In this document: piece by piece, positions 30,273-32,993 of the stretch
Position numbering within the stretch: position 1 is the first letter of the stretch
Layout of the letters: each line of letters begins with the position of its first letter
NCBI GenBank assembly: GCA_900314085.1
Contig: OMTX01000023.1
Coordinates: 1-64,000 of the forward strand
Length of the DNA stretch: 64,000 nt
From: an uncultured Lachnospiraceae bacterium
GTDB lineage: Bacteria > Bacillota > Clostridia > Lachnospirales > Lachnospiraceae
Direction: 5' to 3'
Position numbers and translations under genes: made by a program
The notes under the pieces: model-generated
What the model saw: only the letters and a program-made list of their open reading frames with translations
Told to the model about the DNA's origin: nothing
Databases searched by the model: none

Positions 30273-30300
30273 AGTGTCCGTCTGAGACGGACACTTTTTC
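30273..30300 (+). terminator. Terminator between fakA and recG
   Basis: AGTGTCCGTC (30273-30282) pairs perfectly with GACGGACACT (30285-30294), then TTTTTC. Tight tri-base loop. Confidence 0.88.
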
Positions 30301-30314
30301 TGCGGTAAGCTTTT

Positions 30315-32381: not shown

Positions 32382-32419
32382 CGCCATTGAGTGGCTATGA
32401 AAACCGTCCTTTATTATGC

Positions 32420-32464
32420 ACGGCCCTTTCACCGGCGGCTCCCTGCCTTGTTTTCAGAAAGGCC
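32420..32464 (+). repeat. Left arm of imperfect inverted repeat
   Basis: About 84% identical to the reverse complement of 32898-32943. Shared blocks are ACGGCCCTTTC, CCGGCGGCTC, CTGCCTT and TCAGAAAGGCC. The arm itself also folds, since GGCCCTTTC can pair with GAAAGGCC. Confidence 0.7.
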
Positions 32465-32708
32465 GTGCGGCAGCAAAGCGCCGTGTCCGGAACCTGCAGG
32501 AAGGAACCTATGTTCCGCTTCTTCAATCGTCTGAAAATACATTCAGATAGGTGTCGGGCGCTGCAGCCGGCGCGAGCCTGCCGGTCAGCAAGGGTAGTAT
32601 GGAAGCCGAAGGAATCCCCCTCGGAGGAGGCCGGCCAGAAACCGCTCTATCGGCCAAACCGCTCCGGCACTCACGGATTCGCAGGGCAGACGGTGTGGAA
32701 ACAATACG

Positions 32709-32788
32709 GTAGCAGAAAAAAGCCCCTCATCGGGCGCCACGAGCGGTCCGTAGACCGCCAGGGCGACCGGGAGGGGCTTTTCTGCTGC
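32709..32788. terminator. Long nested hairpin, possible bidirectional terminator or RNA domain
   Basis: Outer stem AGCAGAAAAAAGCCCCTC (32711-32728) with GAGGGGCTTTTCTGCT; inner perfect stem GCGGTC-cgta-GACCGC (32743-32758). The A/T runs are part of the stem, as in bidirectional terminators. At 80 bases it is large for a terminator and could equally be a domain of a structured RNA. Confidence 0.55.
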
Positions 32789-32897
32789 GAAAGAAATCCG
32801 TACGCACTGCCCGGAGAAGGTGTGAGCATACGGAGCAGCAATTTCACCAAAGAGAAAATGCATTATGAAGGCCGACGACCGAGGGAGTTCCGATACA

Positions 32898-32943
32898 GGC
32901 CTTTCTGAGAGGAAGGCAGACGAGCCGCCGGAGAAAGGGCCGT
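32898..32943 (-). repeat. Right arm of imperfect inverted repeat
   Basis: Inverted counterpart of 32420-32464, with T/A-rich bases (AATAAAA) just outside it as in the left arm (TTTATT). Confidence 0.7.
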
Positions 32944-32959
32944 ACCGCAATAAAAGAGA

Positions 32960-32975
32960 GCTGAGGATTCTCAGC
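32960..32975 (-). terminator. Terminator of rqcH (minus strand)
   Basis: GCTGAG-aatc-CTCAGC read on the minus strand, followed by TCTCTTTTATT. Confidence 0.65.
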
Positions 32976-32993
32976 CTAGCTCATGACAGTCAC

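Follow-up and report, generated by a model that had tools for sequence, protein, structure and literature searches.

The gap between recG and rqcH in the window, by which we mean the whole 64,000-nucleotide stretch of uncultured Lachnospiraceae DNA analyzed here, holds an inverted-repeat-bounded stretch of about 550 bp, and the question is what kind of sequence this is. The original prediction offered two answers, a MITE-like non-autonomous element or a large structured RNA whose two arms form a closing stem. A repeat search gave one inverted arm segment of 22 nt at 32420-32441/32922-32943 (95%) and a second of 22 nt at 32443-32464/32898-32919 (86%). In the comparison with the whole own genome both merged into one arm of 45-46 bp (32420-32464 and 32898-32943; 87% identity, E = 1e-7), or about 60 alignment columns including the AT stretch. 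When the first 200 bases were compared with the reverse complement of the last 200, the local score was 36, and 500 dinucleotide shuffles gave a mean of 10.3 and a maximum of 20, indicating that the arms are a genuine inverted repeat, as had been claimed, and not a product of chance. The arms also fold alone, the arm family having its own consensus hairpin, and the region 32400-32960 folds beyond shuffles on either strand (z of about -10.9 and -10.7). The absence of a transposase or plausible protein between the arms was confirmed as well: the sequence is non-coding, with no Pfam match for its 173-aa and 121-aa open frames, and copy comparison found that the frames are not preserved across copies.

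Second copies were found in both the own genome and a relative, so the sequence is multicopy and dispersed. According to sequence searches, the own genome (G000; 2.34 Mb in 189 contigs, 88.6% complete) contains about 11 related units of ~380 bp and many partial matches, at 74-93% identity. Besides the window copy they lie on C21, C76, C115, C43, C38, C158 (two), C120 (two) and C177. The sister species of the same genus (G005) gave 14 matches and has 8-9 units. When a G005 unit was searched against 397 genomes of the family, strong matches were confined to G000 and G005, with two marginal matches of 27-30 bp elsewhere. With a covariance model built from the outer end (51 nt), E values were 1e-9 to 1e-16 in G000 and mostly 1e-10 to 1e-13 in G005, where one truncated copy reached 1e-3, and no match in the other ~395 family genomes was better than 0.002. 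Hits of a contig pattern scan outside the sister species were single scattered pattern matches, the searched phages, plasmids and viral contigs gave no match, and Rfam, at gathering and loose thresholds, returned one chance-level miRNA hit only. The best reading of this distribution is that the element is new and confined to one genus. Copies are up to 96% alike, so the spread is not ancient. Several sit at contig ends, as is usual for repeats; in practice, repeats of this kind break metagenome assemblies at gene ends.

The units were separable by alignment into two types. Type A comprises the right half of the window element and ten others, and type B the left units of C21 and C115 and the G005 copies. 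The two types have the same inner end (GCCGGTCAGCAAGG...AGCCGAAGG), an outer arm of 45 bp and a hairpin at the center, whose tip is usually GCGGTCCGTAGACCGC. Every unit forms a single giant, imperfect hairpin, palindromic over its whole length and not at the ends alone. Complete inverted pairs with the outer ends outward are present in G000 at C21 and C115 (B and A) and at C158 and C120 (A and a divergent A); at C38 a second unit begins at the contig end. The terminal inverted repeats are the outer ends of paired elements. Among the G005 copies no close inverted pair was seen; their units are single and show only imperfect end-to-end pairing. Unrelated sites have the same two-unit order, in which inner and outer ends are defined, and truncated copies are abundant. 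The window copy retains 55 bp of a B unit, a spacer and a whole A unit, and its parts are as follows.

32385 to 32419, no strand: left outermost AT/T-rich end, assigned by eye from copy comparison
32420 to 32474, minus strand: what remains of the left (type B) unit, its outer arm, 98% identical to the left unit of C21 across 55 bp
32468 to 32474, no strand: deletion junction with CGGCAG microhomology, where ~310 bp of the left hairpin found in C21 and C115 is gone
32475 to 32562, no strand: inter-unit spacer common to C21 (window 32468-32963 against L021 2831-3327, 87%)
32563 to 32945, plus strand: complete right (type A) unit, a single ~380-bp imperfect hairpin with inner end 32563 and outer end 32945, from the type A alignment
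32705 to 32791, plus strand: central terminator-like hairpin with conserved tip GCGGTCCGTAGACCGC, from folds and unit alignment
32895 to 32945, plus strand: outer arm of the right unit, a conserved 51-nt end module (covariance model, E = 6e-14)
32946 to 32985, minus strand: far right end, a terminator-like hairpin with an A/T run (GAGAGCTGAGGATTCTCAGCC) that reads inward after rqcH, with equivalents at C21, C76, C38, C115, C158 and C124

The two arms therefore belong, as outer ends, to two different facing units of ~380 bp, the left of which is mostly deleted, and the idea that they close a single structure had to be given up. The outer-arm model (51-nt outer end) also matches the left remnant, at 32418-32467 (E = 8e-14). 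In C21 and C115, two CGGCAG sites 313 bp apart flank the ~310 bp absent from the window copy, and the junction keeps one of them. This comparison shows that the left hairpin was mostly lost between the CGGCAG repeats at its foot, and the remaining single CGGCAG is the trace that slippage across a hairpin would be expected to leave. The left outermost end, compared by eye (GTGGCTATGAAAACCGTCCTTTATTATGC vs GGGGCTGTGAAAAAACACAGCCCTCTTTTTATGCGGTAC), is probably a degenerate version of the terminator-like hairpin and T-run known from other outer ends. Between the two units of the C115 pair lies an additional ~200 bp (L023:2816-2990), which is absent from C21 and, examined as a possible coding remnant, gave no Pfam match.

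Genes flanking the six G000 copies with both neighbors readable are convergent at four (the window copy, C115, C43 and C158), tandem at two (C21 and C120) and divergent at none; the orientation was set by reading the flank for C21 and automatically for the others. A gene start lies on one side of some copies (C21 left, C120 left and C177). In the best reading, insertion or survival of copies is mostly beside gene 3′ ends. The outer ends commonly carry an inward-pointing terminator-like hairpin with a T-run. Exact GGGCTGTG..CACAGCCC hairpins occur three times in the genome, all abutting element ends (C21, C76 and C124, the last on a contig that ends at TTTTTATGCGGTAC), and the other window terminators have different stems. 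At C21 a degenerate copy lies on the side with the gene start, which favors the view that these hairpins would be part of the element rather than of the neighboring genes; at several G005 single copies the adjoining hairpin is missing. Separately, TTTTTCTGCGGTAAGC, found after a terminator upstream of recG (window 30280-30310), is similar to TTTTTATGCGGTAC of the element outer ends and possibly a target motif, or a chance resemblance.

Orthologous sites without the element, which the original prediction had named as the mark of mobility, are also present. In G005 the recG-rqcH gap measures 108 bp and contains a single small terminator, and the two genes nearly touch in three further genomes (G002, G003 and G004). 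The C21 site measures 925 bp in G000 against 48 bp in G005; for C115 the corresponding lengths are 1191 bp and 73 bp. Each of the three G005 empty sites tested (the counterparts of recG-rqcH, C21 and C115) holds one small bidirectional terminator hairpin. In the reciprocal case, a G005 copy lies downstream of a thrS-like gene and no unit lies beside the matching G000 sequence. No target-site duplication was recognized by eye at the ends of the window copy, C21 and C115, whose flanks are too diverged from G005 for exact ends to be set. With empty sites in relatives, the spread becomes datable.

The hairpin is conserved among the units. In the type A consensus, with only Watson-Crick pairs in the structure, 96.7% of cells are paired, and covarying base pairs are present: 16 of the 83 pairs have changes on both sides, a level that 0 of 500 shuffles attained. 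For slid partners the paired fraction was 36-46%, in a control that is biased towards the structure because the structure was derived from the same alignment. Covarying stems had been expected to favor an RNA in the case of a single copy; the stems were found, but in a repeat of many copies. Non-Watson-Crick events, although small in number, are nearly balanced (G-T 12 vs A-C 11 in type A, 11 vs 10 in type B), so that on neither strand is G-U in excess of A-C. An RNA transcribed from one strand should favor G-U on that strand, and mismatches without strand bias therefore favor a DNA hairpin; with so few events this is support and not proof. Templated quasi-palindrome correction from arm to arm could also produce double changes by a route free of selection. 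The covariation suggests that a hairpin in DNA, and not an RNA, is under selection or is repaired from a template.

What mobilizes the units is a concrete question. No transposase bearing the element ends (GGCCCTTTCNCCGGCGGCTC) was found in the own assembly (88.6% complete), where a search with the 20-bp end at up to 3 mismatches gave element copies and two 3-mismatch, chance-level sites only. Y1 transposase genes occur in five of the six genus genomes; Y1/RAYT-type enzymes were rejected as the mobilizer because the flanks of these genes are without unit sequence, and at least one Y1 gene has different repeats of its own (TTGACAGGCAAATCGATACAATC). Reverse transcriptases and group II introns can target terminators; RVT matches were found in C138 of G000 and none in G005, so this candidate is not common to both carriers. 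A composite transposon was considered for the facing units at C24 and C33 of G005, but the intervals hold unrelated genes (named by eye, an integrase/mobilization region and a terminase-like fragment) and do not appear to form one cargo.

Among known systems, REPINs or BIMEs, which are mobilized by RAYT (TnpA-REP), are likewise non-coding extragenic hairpin modules occurring as singlets and inverted doublets, with a hairpin able to fold in single-stranded DNA (PMC8049555, PMC6006769). Two inverted modules with a spacer are seen here at C21, C115, C158 and C120, and single ones in G005. However, REP modules are of 21-65 nt (PMC6006769), whereas the present units are of ~380 nt and number tens at most. 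We do not file the element as a REPIN because the RAYT-type genes have unrelated flanks, none being a cognate flanked by units, and the REP-typical GT[AG]G foot is not conserved, with GGTAG, GGAAG or GGGAG at the foot of the central hairpin. The pneumococcal BOX, RUP and SPRITE are MITE-like interspersed repeats of few close species with predicted stem-loops, enriched between convergent genes; SPRITE is terminator-like, and BOX is modular and up to 637 bp (PMC3049150). The present element shares the convergent gaps and the few species, but a sequence relation was neither seen nor expected. By analogy, it may work like REPINs, and it is distributed like BOX, RUP and SPRITE; we file it as a member of neither. 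Prokaryotic MITEs such as QMITE2 of Coxiella have inverted ends, no coding capacity, stable stem-loops, intergenic sites and truncated copies (PMC10969869), all shared here, although the present units are larger, GC-rich, fully palindromic and often in inverted pairs. A loose MITE definition (PMC10969869) fits, save for a parent insertion sequence and a proven target duplication.

Taken together, the window feature is likely a degraded copy from a family of mobile repeats that are hairpin-shaped, non-coding, non-autonomous, MITE- or REPIN-like and moved in trans. The unit is a GC-rich imperfect palindrome of ~380 bp folding as one long hairpin, and in G000 two related, non-identical units, often head to head with their inner ends together, make up an element of 0.9-1.2 kb. 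It may spread via the hairpin as single-stranded DNA, with recognition in trans by an enzyme from another locus, in the manner of REPINs or IS200-type elements. A bolder form of this idea, which seems unlikely, is a new class of element in which the covarying DNA hairpin of ~380 nt, well beyond the size of any REP, would itself be the unit of recognition and copying, with head-to-head pairs as the moving form and intrinsic terminators as targets, served by an undescribed or host-encoded enzyme. Inverted ends, lack of coding, mostly convergent gaps and empty sites would suit a classic MITE, related by internal deletion to a DDE-type insertion sequence whose terminal repeats it would share, and making target-site duplications. 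Nevertheless, the assembly has no transposase with these ends, no duplication was recognized at the window copy, C21 or C115, the palindrome spans the whole unit, and the GC content is about 61%, compared with 52% for the window; we regard this origin as rather unlikely.

The small bidirectional terminators at the three G005 sites, the inward-facing hairpins at many outer ends and the preference for gene 3′ ends could instead mean that host-kept terminators have overgrown and spread by gene conversion between terminator sites, not by transposition. The two-unit order at unrelated sites, the copies beside gene starts and the G005 single copies without an adjoining hairpin make this distinctly improbable. 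A family of genes for a large structured non-coding RNA, each read from one strand and multiplied by duplication across the genome, would account for the strong fold and real covariation, but is very unlikely given the balanced mismatches, the many patchy intergenic copies in two species only, the inverted pairing and truncation, and the Rfam result. The original interpretation was thus partly supported: its RNA branch was not supported, while its MITE-like branch was largely upheld by copies and empty sites, without a parent transposon of the same ends or a recognized target duplication. With the preferred reading, of a hairpin repeat moved in trans, the REP/BOX/MITE world gains a family of hairpin repeats that are of unusual size and confined to one genus.

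Several neighboring sequences were observed in passing. The inner flanks of two G005 units (L032 and L035) have in common ~300 bp of degenerate coding-like sequence (YARKNHLDYSKLMSAK), which gave no Pfam match. Rpn-type (PDDEXK_2) genes adjoin two G005 unit copies, at L109:8118-8960, confirmed by Pfam, and L112:418-1260, assigned from sequence only; this proximity may be chance. At L076 (G000 C172) and L074 (G005 C13), a Y1/RAYT-type gene has around it a different short repeat, TTGACAGGCAAATCGATACAATCCTGTACAATTT, in several copies, an arrangement resembling a REPtron. Another Y1 transposase, at L077 (G005 C62), lies within dense AAGAGGCACTTGGGGACTGGCC-type repeats, which appear to be a second REP-like family.
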